From Bacteroidota bacterium (GTDB taxonomy: Bacteria; Bacteroidota; Bacteroidia; AKYH767-A; 2013-40CM-41-45), in the NCBI GenBank assembly GCA_003389385.1, contig QQVM01000021.1, positions 1-64,000 of the forward strand: a stretch of DNA of 64,000 nt. The letters run 5' to 3'. Shown here piece by piece: positions 1 through 60,063 of this stretch. Position numbers and translations under genes: made by a program. A model generated the notes under the pieces. That model was given only the letters and a program-made list of their open reading frames with translations. It searched no databases and was not told the origin of the DNA. Numbering within the stretch: position 1 is the stretch's first letter; each line of letters opens with the position of its first letter.

Positions 1-3000
1 CGGATGCGATCATACCCAACCGCTGATACTGACAATTAATAGCAGCACATCAGGCACCACTACCGTGACCGCCTGTGACAGCTACATCTGGAGCGGTCCG
101 CTTGGAAACGGACAGACTTATACAGCCAGCGGCACCTTCACTCATGTGACTCAGAATGCTGCCGGTTGCGATCATACGCAGACCCTTGTGCTGACGATCA
201 ACAGCAGCACCTCCGGTACAAGCACTGTCACTGCCTGTGACAGTTACACCTGGAGCGGACCTTTGGGCAATGGACAGACCTATACCCAGAGCGGCACCTT
301 CACGCACGTAACTCAGAATGCTGCCGGTTGCGATCATACCCAGACACTGGTACTGACCATCAACAGCAGCACATCAGGCACCACCACCGTGACCGCCTGT
401 GACAGTTATGTATGGGCAGAAAACGGACAAACATATTCTCAAAGCGGAACTTTCACTCATGTAAGTACAAATGCTGCCGGATGTCCGCACACAGAAACAC
501 TTATTCTGACTATTAACAACAGTACTAGTTCTTTTCAGAATGAATCAGCATGTGATGCTTACACCTGGTCTGTAAACGGGCAGACATATACTGCTTCAGG
601 TATTTATACTCATCAGGGACTGAACGTGAATGGGTGTACCCATACATTTACCCTGGATCTGACTATCAATTTGAGTACATCTTCAACTTCCAGTATTTCT
701 TCGTGCGATTCCTATACTTGGGATAAAACAGGACTTACATATACACAAAGCGGAACATATACTTCCCATGATGTAAATGCAAGTGGCTGTATACATACAT
801 ATTTCCTTATTCTTGAAATAAGAGCCAGTACAAGCTCTAATCAGACTGTAACTGAATGTGATAGTTATACATGGTCATTGAATAATCAGACATATTTTCA
901 ATCAGGTACGTACATGCATACTAGTATAAATGCATCCGGCTGTACTCACACATTTGTTTTGAATTTGACGATAAATTCAAGCAGTAGTTCTTCCATGAAT
1001 GTCACAGCCTGCAATTCTTATACCTGGTCTCTCAACAATCAAACCTATACTCAGAGCGGGACTTATACTCACCTTGGTACTAATTCATTTGGATGTCCGC
1101 ACTTGACAACTTTACACTTGACCATTAATCCAAATACATCTTCATCTGAAACTGTTGTTGCATGCAGGGATTATACATGGCCAGTAAATAATATCAAATA
1201 TTTTAATTCGGGTGTATATACTCATGTTGGAACAAATCAATTTGGATGTTCTCATACATATACACTGAACCTGACCATTCACCCTAATACACAATCCAGC
1301 CAGACAATTGTTGCTTGTGACAGCTATACCTGGCCGGTCAACGGGGTTACCTACACCACAAACGGTACAAGGACGCACCAGGGTACAAATGCGAACGGAT
1401 GTGTACACATCTACATATTGAATCTGACAATCAAAGCAAGTTCTTCCTCATCTCAGACAGTAACTGCCTGTGATTCTTATGTATGGTCTTTGAATGGTCA
1501 AACATACACACAGAGCGGAGTATATACTCATATGACTACAAACGCAAATGGATGTCCACATACGAATACGTTGAACCTGACAATTAATTACAGCAGCAGT
1601 TCTTCAATGTCTGCAACAGTATGTGATAATTATTTATGGGCAGTAAATGATCAGACTTATAATCAGAGCGGAACATACATTCACATGAGTACAAACGCAT
1701 CTGGTTGTTCGCACACTTCAACGTTGATACTGATTGTCAATAGCAGTTCAAACTCGTCGATATCAGCGACGGCATGTGACAGCTATGTTTGGTCGGAAAA
1801 CGGACAGACATACACTCAGAGCGGTACTTATACACATGTAAGCACCAATGCTGCTGGATGCCCTCATACCGCTACCCTAATCCTGACTATCAATAACAGT
1901 ACAAGTTCGTCTGTATCAGCCACGGCATGCGACAGCTATGTTTGGTCAGAGAATGGACAGACTTACACTCAGAGCGGCACTTACACTCATGTAAGCACTA
2001 ATGCTTCTGGATGTCCTCATACAGCTACCCTGATCCTGACTATCAATAATAGCTCAAGTTCGTCTGTATCAGCCACGGCATGCGACAGTTATATTTGGTT
2101 AGAAAACGGCCAGACTTACACTCAGAGCGGTACTTACACATTTGTAAGCACCAATGCTTCTGGATGTCCTCATACAGCTACCCTGATACTGACTATCAAT
2201 AACAGTTCAAGCTCGTCTGTATCAGCGACTACATGTGACAGTTATGTTTGGTCAGAAAATGGTCAGACTTACACTCAGAGCGGTACTTACACTTATGTAA
2301 GCACCAATGCTTCGGGATGCCCTCATACTGCCACTCTGATCCTGACTATCAATAATAGCACAAGTTCTTCTGTATCAGCGACGGCATGCGACAGTTATGT
2401 TTGGTCAGAAAACGGTCAGACTTACACGCAGAGTGGCACTTACACTCAAGTAAGCACCGATGCTTCGGGATGCCCTCATACAGCCACTCTGATCCTGACT
2501 ATCACTAATAGTTCAAGCTCGTCTGTATCAGCGACTACATGCGACAGTTATATTTGGTCAGAGAACGGACAGACTTACACTCAAAGTGGCACTTACACTC
2601 ATGTAAGCACCAATGCTTCTGGATGCCCTCATACCGCTACCCTAATCCTGATTATCAATAACAGTTCAAGTTCGTCTGTATCAGCCACGGCATGCGACAG
2701 CTATGTTTGGTCAGAAAACGGACAGACTTACACTCAGAGCGGCACTTACACTCATGTAAGCACCAATGCTTCTGGATGTCCTCATACAGCTACTATCAGC
2801 CTTACGATTAATAATAACACTTCATCAAGCAGCACAATAAGTGCATGCAATTTCTATACCTGGCCTGAAAATGGCCAGACGTATACTCAGAGCGGAGTGT
2901 TCACGCATAGCAAGACGAATGCATCAGGATGTACGCATCTAAGCACTTTAAATCTGACTATCAATCAAAACACTGCATCAAGTGAATCTGTGATTGCATG

Positions 3001-3430
3001 CAATAGCTATTTTTGGCCTGTTAATAATACAACATATACTCAGAGCGGAACCTACTTTCATGTAGGCACTAATGCAGCCGGATGTCAGCATACCTATATG
3101 TTACAGCTGACAATCCATCAGGGTACATCTTCATCTGAATCCGCGACTGCCTGCAACTCTTTTATGTGGAATGTGAATGGTAATACGTATACGAGCAGCG
3201 GAACATATACTCATTCTGGTCTGAACCAAAATGGTTGTCCGCACACTTATACTCTGATTTTGACTATTAATAGCAGCAGCCAGTCTTCCACGAATGTTGT
3301 TGCATGCGGAAGCTACACCTGGTCTGTGAACAATGTGACTTACCTCAATAGTGGAACATATACTCATGTTTCTACCAATGCATCGGGATGTCCGCATACA
3401 TCAATTCTGAATATTACCATTTCAAGTGGA
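1..3430 (+). repeat. In-frame tandem repeat array, 153-bp unit
   Basis: One partial and 22 full coding repeats. The first two full units are 54 codons long (an insert around GPLGNG); the rest are 51 codons (153 bp). Conserved positions are A-C-D-S-Y-x-W, N-G-Q-T-Y-T-x-S-G-T-Y-T-H, N-A-x-G-C-x-H-T and L-x-L-T-I-N. Divergence is uneven: units at each end of the central block vary freely, while two groups are almost identical. Because the period is a multiple of three, copy-number change keeps the frame. Confidence 0.93.
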
Positions 3431-5437
3431 CTTGCAGTGAATTGCTCAGTCGTTAGCCATGTTTCATGTTTTGGTGGCTCCGACGGAAGTGTATCTCTGA
3501 ATATCACAGGTGGTATTCCTCCATACATTATTACTGGATCAACTTCAGGTCTCAGTGCTGATACATATTCGTATATTGTAAGTGATGCCGCAGGATGTAC
3601 TGCTGTTTGTTCAGCTACGATCACAGAGCCGGGTAAAATTTCCGGTAATATGAGTGTCACAGCGGCCAATTGCGGAATATCAAATGGTACCGCCACAGCC
3701 AATGTTTCTGGCGGAACCCCTCCTTACACATATTTGTGGTCTGATAATCAAACTACCAATCCTGCAACAGGACTTGCTGCTGGAAGTTATTCAGTTACTG
3801 TTACTGATCAGAATGGATGTACCGCCAGACTCACTGGTAATGTTCCGGGAGTCGGTGTATTGCCGGATCCTGCAGGTACCATTTCCGGACCAAATGGTGT
3901 ATGCAGAAATAACTCTGGAATAATTTATTCTATTGCCCCGGTTTCAGGAGCAAGTTCATATGATTGGTTGCTGCCTTCCGGTATCACCGGCAGTTCAAAT
4001 ACAAATTCCATTACCGTCAGCATAAGTTCTAATTATTCAGGAGGATTTATCTGTGTTGTACCTGTAAATAGTTGCGGAAGCGGAATGCAAGCATGCATGA
4101 ATATCCCTGTGTTTACCGCAAAGCCGGCTCAACCAGGAAATATTGTAGGTCCAGTTAACCCTTGTGGGCCAATTGTAGTTACTTATTCTGTGCCTGCAGT
4201 TCCGAACACTTCCACCTATATGTGGACAGTTTCAGGAACAGGGTTGTCAATCCTGAGCGGAAACGGAACTAATTCTATACAGGTTAGTATTCCTTCAGGC
4301 TTTGGACAAGGTACGGTGTCGGTCACAGCTCAGAACTGTATTGGTATATCATCGCCAAGATCAGTACTGATTACTGGAATTCCTGTGCATTCCAACTCCT
4401 TGAACGGGCCTGCCTTTGCCTGCGCTAACACCAGCAATGTCAATTATAGCATCAATCCTGTGATTGGAGCAGGTAACTCTTATGTATGGTCAACAATTGG
4501 CGATATGACAGTGGTTTCTTCAAACCTTAATTCATGCGTAGTAAACTTTGGCCCGAATTTCACCACTGGTTCTCTTAATGTAACTACCTCAAGTGCTTGC
4601 GGACCGTTTACAAAGAGTTATACAATTCGATCAACACCGCTTCAGCCAGGTTCTATTTCCGGTCCAGGTACGAACCTGTGTAATCTTTCCGGTGTTACCT
4701 ACAGCATAGCGGCTGTGGCTAATGCAACCAGCTATGCGTGGACTGTACCTGCGGGAGTTAATATCACTGCCAACACAGGCTTGTCAATCACGGTGAATTT
4801 CACACCTGCCTTTACCGGCACAGGAAACATATGTGTTGCTGCCGTTAATTCGTGCGGACCTGGTGTTGAAAGGTGTTATTCAGTCACTGCTCGTCCAGGC
4901 GTTCCTTCTGATCCGAACGGACCATTGTCTGTTTGCAAATCCAATTCAGCAGTGAATTACACAATTCTACCTGTTTCAGGTGCTGTGTCTTATACTTGGT
5001 CTATTACAGGAGGTGCTACCATTAGTCCAACTGGCACATCAGCAACAGTGAACTATAATTCTGCAACTTCGAATCAGGCAATCATCACGGTTAATGCTGT
5101 GAACAGTTGTGGTGCAAGTCAGCCAGGACGATCTACAGTTATGGTCAATCTTGGTTGCCGTACCACCAACCATGACATGGCAATTGAGGATCTGAAAGCA
5201 TTTCCAAATCCGACATCGGGCCGTGTCACCTTCAGTATGAACTCAACTTCTGACTCAGAATACTTTGTTATTCTAAGGGATATTCTTGGCAAAGAAATCC
5301 AGACTGAGAAAATACAGGTCAAATCAGGAGCCAATATCCTTGAGATGGATTTAGGTAAATATCCAAAAGGTATTTACATGGTTTCATTTGATAGAATAGG
5401 GGAGAAGTCAAATGTGATAAGGATTTTGGTTCAGTAA
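1..5437 (+). CDS. Giant repetitive T9SS type A cargo protein (5' partial)
   Basis: The frame is open from base 2, so the gene begins upstream; the GTG at 65 lies inside a repeat and is not the start. In order it shows about 23 tandem repeats of 51-54 residues (bases 1-3430), two SprB-like repeats (about 3430-3850; motifs SCFGGSDGS, GGIPPY, GGTPPYTYLWS), several PKD/Ig-like domains (about 3860-5140; recurring SGPNGVC-type openings and Y-x-W-x-P cores), and a C-terminal type A sorting domain (about 5190-5437; AFPNPTSG, then KGIYMVSF). Proteins of this build are exported by the T9SS and attached to the cell surface or released; an adhesin-like role is inference. Each repeat carries two cysteines, in ACDSY and in GCPHT or GCTHT. 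A hairpin terminator follows. The missing N-terminus should hold a Sec signal peptide. Family assignment is firm; the ligand is unknown. Confidence 0.9.
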   Translation, partial: GCDHTQPLILTINSSTSGTTTVTACDSYIWSGPLGNGQTYTASGTFTHVTQNAAGCDHTQTLVLTINSSTSGTSTVTACDSYTWSGPLGNGQTYTQSGTFTHVTQNAAGCDHTQTLVLTINSSTSGTTTVTACDSYVWAENGQTYSQSGTFTHVSTNAAGCPHTETLILTINNSTSSFQNESACDAYTWSVNGQTYTASGIYTHQGLNVNGCTHTFTLDLTINLSTSSTSSISSCDSYTWDKTGLTYTQSGTYTSHDVNASGCIHTYFLILEIRASTSSNQTVTECDSYTWSLNNQTYFQSGTYMHTSINASGCTHTFVLNLTINSSSSSSMNVTACNSYTWSLNNQTYTQSGTYTHLGTNSFGCPHLTTLHLTINPNTSSSETVVACRDYTWPVNNIKYFNSGVYTHVGTNQFGCSHTYTLNLTIHPNTQSSQTIVACDSYTWPVNGVTYTTNGTRTHQGTNANGCVHIYILNLTIKASSSSSQTVTACDSYVWSLNGQTYTQSGVYTHMTTNANGCPHTNTLNLTINYSSSSSMSATVCDNYLWAVNDQTYNQSGTYIHMSTNASGCSHTSTLILIVNSSSNSSISATACDSYVWSENGQTYTQSGTYTHVSTNAAGCPHTATLILTINNSTSSSVSATACDSYVWSENGQTYTQSGTYTHVSTNASGCPHTATLILTINNSSSSSVSATACDSYIWLENGQTYTQSGTYTFVSTNASGCPHTATLILTINNSSSSSVSATTCDSYVWSENGQTYTQSGTYTYVSTNASGCPHTATLILTINNSTSSSVSATACDSYVWSENGQTYTQSGTYTQVSTDASGCPHTATLILTITNSSSSSVSATTCDSYIWSENGQTYTQSGTYTHVSTNASGCPHTATLILIINNSSSSSVSATACDSYVWSENGQTYTQSGTYTHVSTNASGCPHTATISLTINNNTSSSSTISACNFYTWPENGQTYTQSGVFTHSKTNASGCTHLSTLNLTINQNTASSESVIACNSYFWPVNNTTYTQSGTYFHVGTNAAGCQHTYMLQLTIHQGTSSSESATACNSFMWNVNGNTYTSSGTYTHSGLNQNGCPHTYTLILTINSSSQSSTNVVACGSYTWSVNNVTYLNSGTYTHVSTNASGCPHTSILNITISSGLAVNCSVVSHVSCFGGSDGSVSLNITGGIPPYIITGSTSGLSADTYSYIVSDAAGCTAVCSATITEPGKISGNMSVTAANCGISNGTATANVSGGTPPYTYLWSDNQTTNPATGLAAGSYSVTVTDQNGCTARLTGNVPGVGVLPDPAGTISGPNGVCRNNSGIIYSIAPVSGASSYDWLLPSGITGSSNTNSITVSISSNYSGGFICVVPVNSCGSGMQACMNIPVFTAKPAQPGNIVGPVNPCGPIVVTYSVPAVPNTSTYMWTVSGTGLSILSGNGTNSIQVSIPSGFGQGTVSVTAQNCIGISSPRSVLITGIPVHSNSLNGPAFACANTSNVNYSINPVIGAGNSYVWSTIGDMTVVSSNLNSCVVNFGPNFTTGSLNVTTSSACGPFTKSYTIRSTPLQPGSISGPGTNLCNLSGVTYSIAAVANATSYAWTVPAGVNITANTGLSITVNFTPAFTGTGNICVAAVNSCGPGVERCYSVTARPGVPSDPNGPLSVCKSNSAVNYTILPVSGAVSYTWSITGGATISPTGTSATVNYNSATSNQAIITVNAVNSCGASQPGRSTVMVNLGCRTTNHDMAIEDLKAFPNPTSGRVTFSMNSTSDSEYFVILRDILGKEIQTEKIQVKSGANILEMDLGKYPKGIYMVSFDRIGEKSNVIRILVQ
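1760..2790 (+). repeat. Homogenised block of seven near-identical 153-bp units
   Basis: Units starting at 1760, 1913, 2066, 2219, 2372, 2525 and 2678 keep the same register to the base. They differ only by scattered substitutions, many synonymous, for example tcagccacg versus tcagcgacg at unit starts. This suggests recent tandem duplication, unequal crossing-over or gene conversion inside the older, diverged array. Assembly from short reads is also at risk here, so the copy number should be treated with care. Confidence 0.85.
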
Positions 5438-55326: not shown

Positions 55327-58300
55327 ATGATTAAAGTTACTTACAACTTCGTCAGGTTTTTGATAATCCTGATCATGGCAATTGTTGTGCATAACAATGA
55401 AGTTCGCGCAAGTCATGCGATGGGTGCGGATCTTACCTATGCATGTGTAGGAGGAAATCCAAATCAATACTTACTTACCTATTCCTTTTATCGAGATTGC
55501 GACGGTATATCTGCTCCATCATCAGTTACGATTTCCTATACTTCTTCCTGTTTTGGCGGAGGCAGTGTCACCCTTAATCCTACGCCATCTTCACCAACTC
55601 ACATCACACCGGTATGTCCGACTGCCCTCACCACTTGCAATGGAGGTACATTCACAGGAATTGAGGAATGGATTTATACCGGAACTGTGACTCTGCCAGG
55701 TCCGTGTGCCGACTGGAGATTTAGTTTTTCGCACTGTTGCAGAAATGGAGCCATTACAACAATAAATGCTCCAACTGCAGATAACATTTATGTATACTCA
55801 TTGCTCAATAATACAATGGGTTGTAATAACTCGCCAACTTTTGGAAACAGACCGGTTCCTTTTGCGTGTGTAGGACAAAGGTTCTGTTTCAATCACGGTG
55901 CAAACGATCAGGATGGTGATTCCATCACTTATCAGTTGATCACACCTTTTTCTGGAGCAACAACAACCGTTACCTATACAGCTCCTTATTCAAGCACGCA
56001 GCCTGTGAGATCAAATCCTCCGGTTTCATTCAACCCGATTACAGGGGATATTTGCATGGTTCCTACACAAACAGACGTTACAGTATTTGCAGTATTGGTA
56101 TCAGAATATCGGAATGGGGTATTAATTGGACAGGTTGAGAGAGATATTCAGCTAACTATAAACAATTGTAATAACTTTCTTCCATTGCTTACGGGGATAA
56201 ATGGTTTGCCTTCATTCACAATGAGTGCTTGCGCCAATACACCAATTAATTTCTGGTTTAGGTCTATAGACGCTGATGTGCCCAACACTACCAGAATCAC
56301 CTGGGATTTTGCCATTCCGGGAGGAACACTCACTACGACAGGAGGGAATCGCGACACTGCCTATTTCAGTTGGACACCTACTACAGCACAGATCAGTAAT
56401 TCTCCATATTGCTTTACCGCTACTGTCGAGGATGATAACTGCCCGTATCTCGGAGTGAATGTCTATTCCTATTGCATAACAGTCTGTGGATTGGATGCCA
56501 ATGCCGGAATCGATCAGGTTGTGAATTGCGGTGCTACCGCAAACTTGAGTGGTTCAGCTACTGGGAACTGCAGTTCCAATTATACTTACACATGGAATCC
56601 GGGAGGTGTATCCGGACAAAATTTAAATGGAGTAGGAGTTGGAACTTATCAGCTGATAGTCAGCAACAATGTTTGCAGCGACACAGACTATGTGGATGTT
56701 CTTCCCGGTCCCGGTGTACCCGTTGCAAACTTCAACTTCACTACTAATTGTAGCAGTACACAGGTGCCTTTTTCGGATCAGTCTGTTGCCACCGGCGTAA
56801 ATATTACACAATGGAGCTGGAATTTTGGAGATAACAATACCTCCAACCAGCAGAACCCAACACATACTTACGCAGCAAATGGAACTTATAATGTGACACT
56901 TATTGTCACAACCGCAACAGGTTGTCAGGATACAATTATGCAGCAGGTCACAGTCAGTACCAATGTGCCGAATGCAGTTTTCAGTTCACCTGCTGTCTGT
57001 AACGGTACAGCCATGAATTTCTCTGACCTTTCTACAGGCGGACAGATTGTGGCTTGGAGCTGGAACTTTGGCGATCCTGGTAGTGGAGCCAACAACACCT
57101 CTAATGCTCAGAATCCATCACACACTTTTACCGGAGCAGGAACTTTCCCGGTGAGTCTGCAGGTTACAAATGCGGCAGGTTGTTCAACTACTGTCCAACA
57201 GAACGTAACTGTAAATGCAAATCCAACTGTCTTTGTGGCTGATGCGCAAATTTGCATCGGCAGTTCAACAAATCTGACTGCCCCGGCAGGATTTTCTAAC
57301 TATAACTGGAATCCTGGTGGAGCTTTGCAGACAATTACGGTTAGCCCTGTCGTAAACTCGTCATATACAATCACTGTTACTGATGCTAATAATTGTCAAG
57401 GAAGTCATACCGTAAATGTGACTGTTAACCCTTTGCCACTTGCTGATGCAGGGCAGGATCAGACGATTTGTGCAGGCACCAATGCAACTTTAACAGCAAG
57501 TGCAGGTGGTGCTACTTACGTGTGGAATCCCGGGAATCTTAACGGACAAAGTGTGTCTGTTAGTCCTGCTAGCACACAGATATATACGCTTACTGTTACT
57601 AGTGCTGCCGGATGTGTAAACACAGATCAAATTACCATCAATGTAAACCCTATGCCATTAGTTGAGGCCGGGGATGATCTTGCGATATGCAAAGGTGAGT
57701 CTGCAACGTTGACCGCAATTGGAGCTGGTAATATTATTTGGACTCCAGGACCAATTAATGGTGCGTCGATTACTGTTAGTCCATTAGTCACAACCACTTA
57801 TACTGTGACCATAAGCGATGGAATAGGCTGCACCGGAACTGATGCGGTTACTTTAATTGTGAATGAAATACCTGTGGCTGACTTCTCAAACTCAGCCCCG
57901 GTTTGTCAGGGTAATATTGTTACGTTTAACGATATATCAACCATTCCTGTTGGTACCATTACGAACTGGCTTTGGGACTTTGGAAATGGCCAATCTTCCA
58001 ACCAACGAAATCCACAAAATACATATGTTGCATCTGGGAATTTCAATGTACAGCTCATTGTAACTTCTAACGGAGGTTGTAAGGACACCACAGTTCAGTT
58101 GATTGTGATCAATCCTATTCCTGCTGTGGATGCCGGAGCTGATGCAAATATTTGTCCGGGCTTTAATGCCACTCTTACAGCAGCTCCTGCAAATCAATAC
58201 TTGTGGACTCCAGGCAACTTTATTACGCAATCAATCACAATTAGCCCGGCTGCTACGACCGATTATACACTTACTGTTACTGATGTGAACGGATGTCAGA

Positions 58301-60063
58301 ACACTGATGTCGCCAGAGTTATTGTGAATCCAGTTCCTGTAGCGAATGCAGGTCCTGATCAGAGCATATGTTTCGGAGAAAATACAACTTTATTTGCCGC
58401 CGGTGTTGGCAATTATACCTGGACTCCTGGAAATTCCAATTCTGCAAGCTTTAATGTGAGTCCTGCAGTAACAACCACCTATCAATTGCATGTTGTGAAC
58501 GCATTCGGTTGCGAAGATTTTGATGATGTTACAGTACAGGTTAACCCCATTCCGGTTTCGGCCTTTACTTCAAGCGGACCAGTTTGTCAGGGTAATCCGG
58601 TATCTTTTACAGATGTTTCGACAGTCAGCTCAGGAAGCATAACTTCATGGTCTTGGGATCTTGGTAGCGGAGTGGTGAGCACAATACAAAACCCTTCATT
58701 ACCTTATAATACAGCAGGTATTTTCAATATTCAGCTAATTGTTACTACAGATGCAGGTTGTAAGGATACAATCTTGAACCCGCTTACCATTTGGGCAACA
58801 CCGGTTGCCTCCTTCACAAACACCAATGTCTGCGAGGGAAATCCGATACAGTTTAGTAATACGTCCACAATTTCTGATGGTACCAGCTTGATTTACTCAT
58901 GGAACATGGGTGACAATTCCGGCACTTCCAACTCCGCATCTCCTTCATATCAATATTCTGTTTACGGATCTTATCCGGCAACCTTGTCAGTCAGTTCAGT
59001 AAATGGCTGCTCAGACCAAATAACCCGTATCGTCAATGTCTTTCCTTTGCCAACTGCGGCTCTCACACATACTTTTGCCTGTGAAGACAGTCCTGCTCAG
59101 TTTCAGGATATGTCCACTGTTCCTGCAGGAAATATTAGTTCATGGTATTGGACTTTTGGAGACGGATCTATCGGCACTTTCCAAAATCCTCAACACACCT
59201 ATAACGACCCGGGCTATTATCCGATCACATTACTTGTAAGTACTAATAATGGTTGTCAGGATATGGCAAATTCAGTTATCAGAATTGCTCCACGACCTGT
59301 GTCGGATTTCAGCACTCAAAATGTATGCTTCGGGGAGTTTACTGCACTCACAGATTTGTCTTATCCTGTCACAGGCAGCATTACCCAATACAGTTGGAGC
59401 TTTGGAGACGGAAACACATCCTCTGATCAGGATCCTGTGCATTTTTATAATTCTCCAGGTTGGTATCAGGTTTCTCTTACCGTGACCTCCGATAGTGGTT
59501 GTGTAACCACTCTGACAAGACCGAATGCTGTGCAGATTTACAGGCCTCCTACAGCTTTGTTCTCAAGCAGCGATGCTCAGGCCAGCGATATTTATCCGCT
59601 GATTAATTTCTATAATGAGACAGGTTCGCTTGGTACTTATCAGTGGGATTTCGGTGATGGCACTACAGCGACGGATTACTCGCCAACTCATATGTATCCT
59701 GATGTGGGAACTTATGTAGTCCGCCTTATCACAGTTGATTTGAATGGCTGTGTGGATACTGTTTATCGTACAGTTGAGATTAAGCCTAGCTCAACAACCT
59801 ATATACCCAATGCGTTTACTCCCAATGGAGATAAGAAAAATGACATGTTTAGGGTTTATACACATAATGTCACTCAACTTGAAGCACAAATTTTTGACCG
59901 TTGGGGACTCAAGGTCTTTGAATGGGATAATCTGGAAGGCGGCTGGGACGGAAGGGTAGAGGGAAATCCTGCTCAAGCTGATGTGTACATTTATCGGGTT
60001 ACGACCACTGATGTGAACAGCAAGCGGGAAGTTTACATCGGCCACGTCAGTCTCGTCAGATAA
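55327..60063 (+). CDS. PKD-rich giant surface protein with T9SS type B (gliding-motility-type) sorting domain
   Basis: A 1578-residue secreted protein. A signal peptide (to about residue 28) precedes the widespread ASHAMGADLTYACVGGN opening and a cysteine-rich N-terminal region (about 30-390). From about residue 390 there are six Ig/SprB-like modules (for example AGQDQTICAGTNATLTA) mixed with about eight PKD domains (WSWNFGDNN, WLWDFGNG, WYWTFGDGS, YSWSFGDGN and similar). The C-terminal 90 residues are the CHU_C domain (YIPNAFTPNGDKKNDMF, FDRWGLKVFEW, GGWDGRVEG, YIYRVTT), which directs type B secretion by the T9SS. Role as adhesin or matrix protein is inference. Two terminators follow. Confidence 0.93.
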   Translation: MIKVTYNFVRFLIILIMAIVVHNNEVRASHAMGADLTYACVGGNPNQYLLTYSFYRDCDGISAPSSVTISYTSSCFGGGSVTLNPTPSSPTHITPVCPTALTTCNGGTFTGIEEWIYTGTVTLPGPCADWRFSFSHCCRNGAITTINAPTADNIYVYSLLNNTMGCNNSPTFGNRPVPFACVGQRFCFNHGANDQDGDSITYQLITPFSGATTTVTYTAPYSSTQPVRSNPPVSFNPITGDICMVPTQTDVTVFAVLVSEYRNGVLIGQVERDIQLTINNCNNFLPLLTGINGLPSFTMSACANTPINFWFRSIDADVPNTTRITWDFAIPGGTLTTTGGNRDTAYFSWTPTTAQISNSPYCFTATVEDDNCPYLGVNVYSYCITVCGLDANAGIDQVVNCGATANLSGSATGNCSSNYTYTWNPGGVSGQNLNGVGVGTYQLIVSNNVCSDTDYVDVLPGPGVPVANFNFTTNCSSTQVPFSDQSVATGVNITQWSWNFGDNNTSNQQNPTHTYAANGTYNVTLIVTTATGCQDTIMQQVTVSTNVPNAVFSSPAVCNGTAMNFSDLSTGGQIVAWSWNFGDPGSGANNTSNAQNPSHTFTGAGTFPVSLQVTNAAGCSTTVQQNVTVNANPTVFVADAQICIGSSTNLTAPAGFSNYNWNPGGALQTITVSPVVNSSYTITVTDANNCQGSHTVNVTVNPLPLADAGQDQTICAGTNATLTASAGGATYVWNPGNLNGQSVSVSPASTQIYTLTVTSAAGCVNTDQITINVNPMPLVEAGDDLAICKGESATLTAIGAGNIIWTPGPINGASITVSPLVTTTYTVTISDGIGCTGTDAVTLIVNEIPVADFSNSAPVCQGNIVTFNDISTIPVGTITNWLWDFGNGQSSNQRNPQNTYVASGNFNVQLIVTSNGGCKDTTVQLIVINPIPAVDAGADANICPGFNATLTAAPANQYLWTPGNFITQSITISPAATTDYTLTVTDVNGCQNTDVARVIVNPVPVANAGPDQSICFGENTTLFAAGVGNYTWTPGNSNSASFNVSPAVTTTYQLHVVNAFGCEDFDDVTVQVNPIPVSAFTSSGPVCQGNPVSFTDVSTVSSGSITSWSWDLGSGVVSTIQNPSLPYNTAGIFNIQLIVTTDAGCKDTILNPLTIWATPVASFTNTNVCEGNPIQFSNTSTISDGTSLIYSWNMGDNSGTSNSASPSYQYSVYGSYPATLSVSSVNGCSDQITRIVNVFPLPTAALTHTFACEDSPAQFQDMSTVPAGNISSWYWTFGDGSIGTFQNPQHTYNDPGYYPITLLVSTNNGCQDMANSVIRIAPRPVSDFSTQNVCFGEFTALTDLSYPVTGSITQYSWSFGDGNTSSDQDPVHFYNSPGWYQVSLTVTSDSGCVTTLTRPNAVQIYRPPTALFSSSDAQASDIYPLINFYNETGSLGTYQWDFGDGTTATDYSPTHMYPDVGTYVVRLITVDLNGCVDTVYRTVEIKPSSTTYIPNAFTPNGDKKNDMFRVYTHNVTQLEAQIFDRWGLKVFEWDNLEGGWDGRVEGNPAQADVYIYRVTTTDVNSKREVYIGHVSLVR

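Follow-up and report, generated by a model that had tools for sequence, protein, structure and literature searches.

Coupled cysteines suggest a disulfide ladder of Ig-like beads in a T9SS cargo protein of Bacteroidota

We analyzed a 64,000-nucleotide stretch of DNA from a Bacteroidota bacterium (GCA_003389385.1, contig QQVM01000021.1), hereafter the window. Its first gene encodes a protein that is, judged by its sequence, a cargo of the type IX secretion system (T9SS) and carries a long tandem array of 51-residue units with two cysteines each. Across the repeat family, the first cysteine of a unit is coupled to the second cysteine of the following unit. We propose that the array is probably a T9SS-exported chain of minimal immunoglobulin (Ig)-like beads, each stapled by a disulfide to the next, which would make the chain a covalent ladder.

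The array contains 22 complete units (nt 47 to 3430) and a 15-residue remnant of the preceding one. The repeat described in the initial annotation is therefore real, while its count of about 23 comes to 22 complete units and a fraction. Units 3-22 have 51 residues and units 1-2 have 54. As had been stated, every unit has two cysteines: exactly two are present in 22/22, the first at residue 10 of the unit and the second at residue 38 (41 in the 54-residue units). Most differences among units 12-18 are synonymous (mean proportion of synonymous differences 0.377 and of nonsynonymous differences 0.047 over 21 pairs). This indicates that the protein sequence is kept by selection and that the repeat is no accident at the DNA level. 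The open frame starts within the array and ends in a type A sorting domain, which scores above the curated cut-offs of PF18962 (40.5 vs 27 bits) and TIGR04183 (24.7 vs 23). The source genome, 3.36 Mb in size, also encodes the SprA translocon (TIGR04189, 2654.9 bits). The assignment as T9SS cargo thus holds.

Relatives were sought in genome contigs with patterns taken from the window array. The search gave 179 stretches and 153 relatives, and 78 loci were kept; owing to the origin of the patterns, each of these has at least one near-standard stretch. An iterated profile aligned 1072 units with the core A-C-D-S-Y-T-W ... G-Q-T-Y-T-Q-S-G-T-Y-T ... N-G-C-D-S ... T-L-x-L-T-I. A strict filter kept 797 of them. 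Dropping 18 further units, which were Ig_7-like beads or cut short, left 779, and for these a wider cysteine window was used.

Each set of four counts below gives, in turn, the pairs with both cysteines present, with the second alone missing, with the first alone missing and with neither present. For the first cysteine of unit i and the second of unit i+1, the 797 strict units gave 565/0/16/13 and the 779 units gave 571/0/9/12 (Fisher P 8.5e-20). The cysteine pair of one unit gave 677/23/79/0 in the 779 units, and the first cysteine of unit i with the second of unit i-1 gave 527/16/49/0. None of the 797 strict units lacked both its cysteines; 3/930 did before the strict filter. The coupling between neighbors remained after clustering at 80% (417/0/9/7, P 2.1e-11), 60% (264/0/4/6, P 3.8e-10) and 50% identity (139/0/4/3, P 6.9e-5). 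The longer Ig_7-type beads showed a weak tendency toward the same neighbor coupling (141/1/11/2, P 0.019).

The same pair was found by pseudolikelihood coupling analysis of 598 neighboring unit pairs (effective number of sequences 402). Among 2159 inter-unit pairs of unlike columns, first(i)-second(i+1) came first, at 5.6 standard deviations. Rank 2, A48-B35 at 3.9 standard deviations, fits the same bead junction. The cysteine pair of one unit ranked 905 of 990 intra-unit pairs and the opposite neighbor pair 1922 of 2159. Mutual information with average product correction on the same 598 pairs placed first(i)-second(i+1) at rank 37 of 4601, with the same-unit cysteines at 686 and 1024 and the opposite neighbor pair at 1337. 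Couplings were also found between columns 3-5 and 39-44 and between columns 8-10 and 47-48. These suggest that the first strand of the bead runs parallel to the last, in which case the two cysteines of one bead would lie at opposite poles.

The ends of the arrays provide a further line of evidence. The first cysteine is missing in the last unit of 26/96 runs of at least three units, compared to 14/458 inner units (P 2.4e-12). Its loss was compared with the sequence that follows at 123 of 134 ends, the others being too near the frame or contig end, and then at the 85 non-redundant ones. The protein ends within 115 residues at 13/22 ends that have lost the first cysteine and at 4/63 that have kept it (P 9.7e-7). 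A loop-cysteine motif is found in the next 90 residues at 2/22 and 40/63, respectively (P 1.1e-5). By eye, 11 of the 13 short ends without the first cysteine lead into sorting domains and two (L062) do not. A Pfam sorting domain of type A or B was found in 6/6 tested proteins that have lost the first cysteine at the array end. Genomes held out of the analysis (34 regions from 18 other genomes) agree with the end effect: the cysteine is missing in 2/7 last units and 0/36 inner units. In the window protein, SprB-like beads follow the array and are a possible partner for the first cysteine of unit 22.

Some ends without the first cysteine precede another domain that does not look Ig-like. A motif like DHEGNVYNTVQIGSQCW is present in the domain after the array in L024, L031, L034, L037, L054 and L082 (Bacteroidales, several from ruminants); in these loci the first cysteine is missing from the last unit.

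Structure prediction suggests that the unit is a minimal five-stranded Ig-like bead. The AlphaFold2 model of four units (95-row alignment) has a mean predicted local distance difference test (pLDDT) score of 97.7 and a predicted template modeling score of 0.72, and places the strands of its first unit at 2-9, 12-14, 19-21, 25-32 and 38-48. The two-unit model has a mean pLDDT of 97.1. Both are all-beta and match head-to-tail chains, in line with the small beta modules that had been expected. The nearest solved structure to both models by VIA, with modest Z, appears to be grappling hook protein A (GhpA) of Aureispira sp. CCB-QB1 (PDB 9flp, 9fls, 9flu, 9flv, 9flw, 9flx, 9fly, 9g8b). Like the window array as modeled, GhpA is a head-to-tail chain of beads; its bead has about 80 residues compared to 51 in the window unit. 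For four units, all six VIA entries with Z of at least 5 are GhpA (best Z 5.4, 201-202/204 residues). For two units GhpA 9flv comes first (Z 4.4, 102/102 residues, 3.8 Å), closely followed by tandem Ig domains of neurofascin and Dscam; absence of a family from the VIA lists does not exclude that family. The two-unit model can also be superposed with 102/102 residues on a pair of beads in GhpA 9fls, at 3.0 Å (Z 4.2). Foldseek with four units lists GhpA in the first two places (E 4.5e-8 and 6.5e-6) and also 2qdf and 9ijj at E <0.001, with low TM-scores. Single beads cover whole Ig domains, for example 52 residues at 1.9 Å on 4jgj, with Z only 4.4 and the model as target. We take these matches to reflect a common arrangement of head-to-tail Ig-like beads, no more. 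The new small beta fold once suggested is unsupported, because the models resemble shortened Ig-like beads.

The couplings and the models together suggest how the array may be built. It would form the shaft of a T9SS-exported surface fiber. With the first strand parallel to the last, the first cysteine, at the end of the first strand, would lie at the C-terminal pole of the bead; the second, in the turn that leads into the last strand, would lie at the opposite, N-terminal pole. Head-to-tail stacking would then bring the first cysteine of bead i beside the second of bead i+1. The two would form a disulfide lying within one chain, and each inner bead would be stapled to both its neighbors.

The mechanical consequences were estimated on a path graph of 22 ideal 51-residue beads, each residue being taken as 0.36 nm and each bridge as 0.55 nm. 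With neighbor staples the shortest covalent path per bead is 4.41 nm; it is 8.83 nm if the bonds lie inside the units and 18.36 nm if there are no bridges. Among the 816 backbone bonds between two chosen points, the single cuts that sever this ideal chain number 0, 368 and 816, respectively. Such a chain would be nearly inextensible and nick-tolerant, and the fiber is expected to be stiff, hard to unravel and protease-tolerant. Its architecture suggests a role as adhesin or stalk. More tentatively, and with slightly less than even confidence, we suggest that the ladder has two interleaved load paths, so that one nick would neither unravel nor cut it, and that the staple also occurs in Ig_7-type beads, perhaps including grappling hooks and many T9SS fibers of Bacteroidota.

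Other explanations of the cysteine pattern were considered. A disulfide inside each unit, Cys10 to Cys38 clamping one bead, had been proposed in the initial annotation, and the presence of both cysteines in 22/22 window units and 677/779 filtered family units would suit it. The family contradicts it, with 0 double losses against 23 and 79 single losses in the 779 units (3/930 unfiltered), a rank of 905 of 990 for the same-unit pair, and the signal lying between neighbors. The strand directions derived from the couplings would also place the two cysteines at opposite poles. We regard a bond of this kind as very unlikely. The cysteines might instead act as paired thiols or metal ligands, with Cys10(i), Cys38(i+1) and a histidine two positions after the second cysteine (GC+2) binding a metal between beads. 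The histidine is present in 59/65 countable units of the source genome, as a metal site would have it, yet the other loci retain the cysteine pair with the histidine in only 3/690 units. Disulfides, moreover, are usual in exported proteins. A metal site here seems highly improbable.

Block duplication and shared ancestry could produce coupling as a by-product, without contact. Several double losses do fall within repeated blocks (L075, L056), and offset -2 reaches P 0.00035. Against this, the coupling persists after clustering at 60% (264/0/4/6) and 50% (139/0/4/3, P 6.9e-5), first-cysteine loss depends on what comes after the array, and the pair is at the top of 2159 inter-unit pairs. The chance that ancestry accounts for the signal appears slight. 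Finally, the bridge might connect the same two residues across two parallel chains, one shifted by a bead relative to the other, and so hold together a bundle like the stem of a multimeric hook. The sequences would then show identical coupling and end effects, and GhpA assembles as a heptamer (PMC13319060). A bundle, however, would require an exact stagger of one bead, whereas stacking within one chain would by itself bring the two cysteines opposite one another at the bead junction, where A48 and B35 are coupled. We consider the inter-chain bridge unlikely and favor a disulfide between successive beads of one chain.

Several observations weigh against this preferred reading. The 9-47 and 8-48 couplings alone would equally fit antiparallel strands. 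Offset -2 also has 6 double losses (P 0.00035), which may stem from the triplicated block of L075. When 13 cases with the first cysteine lost and the second of the next unit kept were listed, nine resembled other domains by eye; the other four, in L031, L034 (two) and L076, resemble true units. The second cysteine was lost in 0/99 strict units of the held-out genomes, so that these genomes bear on the end effect and not on the coupling. The end rule has exceptions, since L072 and L039, two of the four short ends that keep the first cysteine, have a sorting domain directly after it. At two ends without it (L062) the sequence that comes next is of another kind and contains a loop cysteine, and L009, from the source genome, keeps it with no cysteine in the next 90 residues. 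Loss of the second cysteine at array starts is weak (5/96 first units vs 10/458 inner units, P 0.16). The structural matches are modest, with best Z of 5.4 for four units and 4.4 for two; a CEACAM15 Ig domain ties with GhpA for two units (VIA, Z 4.4). With the two-unit model, Foldseek gave no hit at E 0.001, and MpAFP and Rib domains ranked above GhpA.

The repeat has no described family in the libraries searched, as had been supposed: neither a credible Pfam or NCBIfam model nor a credible sequence family in the PDB was found for the unit. Matches such as those to NdhO, DUF6060, Myco_19_kDa and Glyco_hydro_79C (Pfam, NCBIfam, PHROGs) varied from row to row and were rejected. NdhO (33.8 vs cut-off 25, window protein) and DUF6060 (67 vs 26.5, L009) pass as summed copies, with no single stretch passing. 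We regard these matches as noise inflated by the repeats. Searching the PDB with the profile also brought up Fab light chains (best E 0.051), which we did not accept as relatives. The alignment A2 comprises 95 of 111 non-redundant four-unit blocks; four own-genome blocks and 12 others, most with a non-family domain first or a long insertion, were left out. Its profile retrieved 12 PDB sequences up to E 10, and GhpA, though in the database searched, was not among them. Neither Ig_7 (PF19081) nor PKD_4 (PF18911) is listed for the window protein at E up to 1, and neither is among the best 25 of 119 families for the 95 A2 rows. DUF11 (PF01345) did not match the window protein up to E 1.

Nevertheless, the unit may be a shortened relative of the Ig_7-type bead. 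Ig_7 and PKD_4 share with the 51-residue units a Y-x-W and G-x-Y...GC core, an upstream cysteine and a loop cysteine. In L105, an Aureispira-like protein that matches GhpA at 7.4e-65, the beads are longer, spaced about 71 residues apart, and Ig_7 scores 86.6 bits summed, with no single stretch passing. An iterated profile begun from these beads also takes in the 51-residue units, and on this sequence comparison we base our reading. Two other proteins tried as a route to GhpA, one of them a DUF11 protein from the genome of L048, gave no GhpA match.

Comparable fibers are known. A giant Mobiluncus adhesin is reported to have 51 Ig-like domains with covalent cross-links inside single domains (PMC10619420). 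It resembles the proposed ladder in being a long tandem Ig-like chain with covalent cross-links, and differs in that the window bond is predicted between neighboring beads. In GhlA of Litorilinea, a chain of DUF11 beads forms the hook filament as beads on a string (PMC13319060). The window array would have the same beads-on-string build; the DUF11 family spans 114 positions compared to 51 residues in the window unit. We found no description of a neighbor-bead staple in the literature searched, most subscription papers lying outside it; the main GhpA paper may describe one. If it exists, the neighbor bond would keep the chain from extending much beyond its folded length and provide redundancy against proteolysis. 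It would offer Bacteroidota a covalent means of building long surface fibers that bear force, acting differently from the bonds within domains of known hardened adhesins such as that of Mobiluncus (PMC10619420).

The histidine at GC+2 appears to mark the source genome. It is found in the window units, and relatives mostly have serine there. Its frequency is 59/65 countable units in the source genome, 3/690 in other loci and 6/104 in a congener. It had been taken as special to this copy; it is indeed rare in other loci, but it is common across the source genome and is not a mark of the window copy. Aspartate, expected in its place, is the commonest residue in relatives (503/946 aligned) at GC+1, one position before the histidine, and window units 1-2 still read GCDH. 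The spread of the histidine through the arrays of the source genome seems to reflect homogenization, perhaps by gene conversion. That it serves as a metal site is only a thought.

By annotated origin, 75 of the 78 loci are from Bacteroidota, one is from an 'uncultured bacterium' and two are on one contig labeled Sphingomonadales. In a sample of the phylum, the repeat was found at E 1e-6 in at least 19/392 genomes, the source genome included, a lower bound since at most 12 candidates were scored per genome. SprA is encoded in all 19, against a background of 320/392. The single congener searched has 76 repeat matches. The phage records searched gave no match, and the plasmid records searched gave two, both from Aureibacter.

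Coordinates of the features of the window gene are listed below. The 5' side of the frame is open because the window starts at the first base of its contig, C5. A search of the source genome for the N-terminal half of the gene, which lies past the edge of the contig, gave no match. The SprB-like beads were recognized by eye; PF13573 is missing from the families listed for the window protein, but the paralogues L010 and L014 match it.

Features of the array-bearing gene in the window
Feature	Position (nt)	Strand	Remark
T9SS cargo gene	2..5437	+	5' end cut off by contig edge; 1811 residues readable
Final 15 residues of incomplete unit	2..46	+	
Units 1-2, 54 residues each	47..370	+	3 additional residues between first and second Cys
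Units 3-22, 51 residues each	371..3430	+	first Cys at residue 10 of the unit, second at residue 38
Most alike stretch of the array, about units 12-18	1725..2793	+	Tandem Repeats Finder: 7.0 copies of 153 bases, 88% matches
Four-unit stretch modeled with AlphaFold2	1292..1903	+	mean pLDDT 97.7
Two-unit stretch modeled with AlphaFold2	1445..1750	+	mean pLDDT 97.1
SprB-like beads with loop Cys	3431..3862	+	by eye
PKD_6 region (PF19408)	3863..5200	+	204.8 bits; five stretches, the best at nt 3863-4099; outer boundaries are approximate
T9SS type A sorting domain (PF18962 / TIGR04183)	5201..5395	+	

The repeat is also present on contigs C18, C4, C17, C22, C1 and C13 of the source genome. Contigs C5, C13, C17, C18 and C22 (the window, L014, L011, L009 and L012) start or stop inside arrays. 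C17 and C18 appear to carry the two halves of one gene, and C22 and C13 those of another. By eye, array sequence is shared between the ends of C17 and C18 and between those of C22 and C13, which suggests that the assembly was broken inside the arrays.

A second T9SS cargo is encoded at 55327-60063 of the window; it carries eight stretches of PKD_4 and a sorting domain of CHU_C type B. It has one run of 14 counted beads; both cysteines are present in 13, and the last is without the first cysteine. A 46-residue form of the unit, in which the loop before the second cysteine is shorter, is found in L032, L046, L069, L071 and L169 of the congener. In L076, another cysteine-paired repeat of about 27 residues (CYE...TTTC.W) comes after the array.
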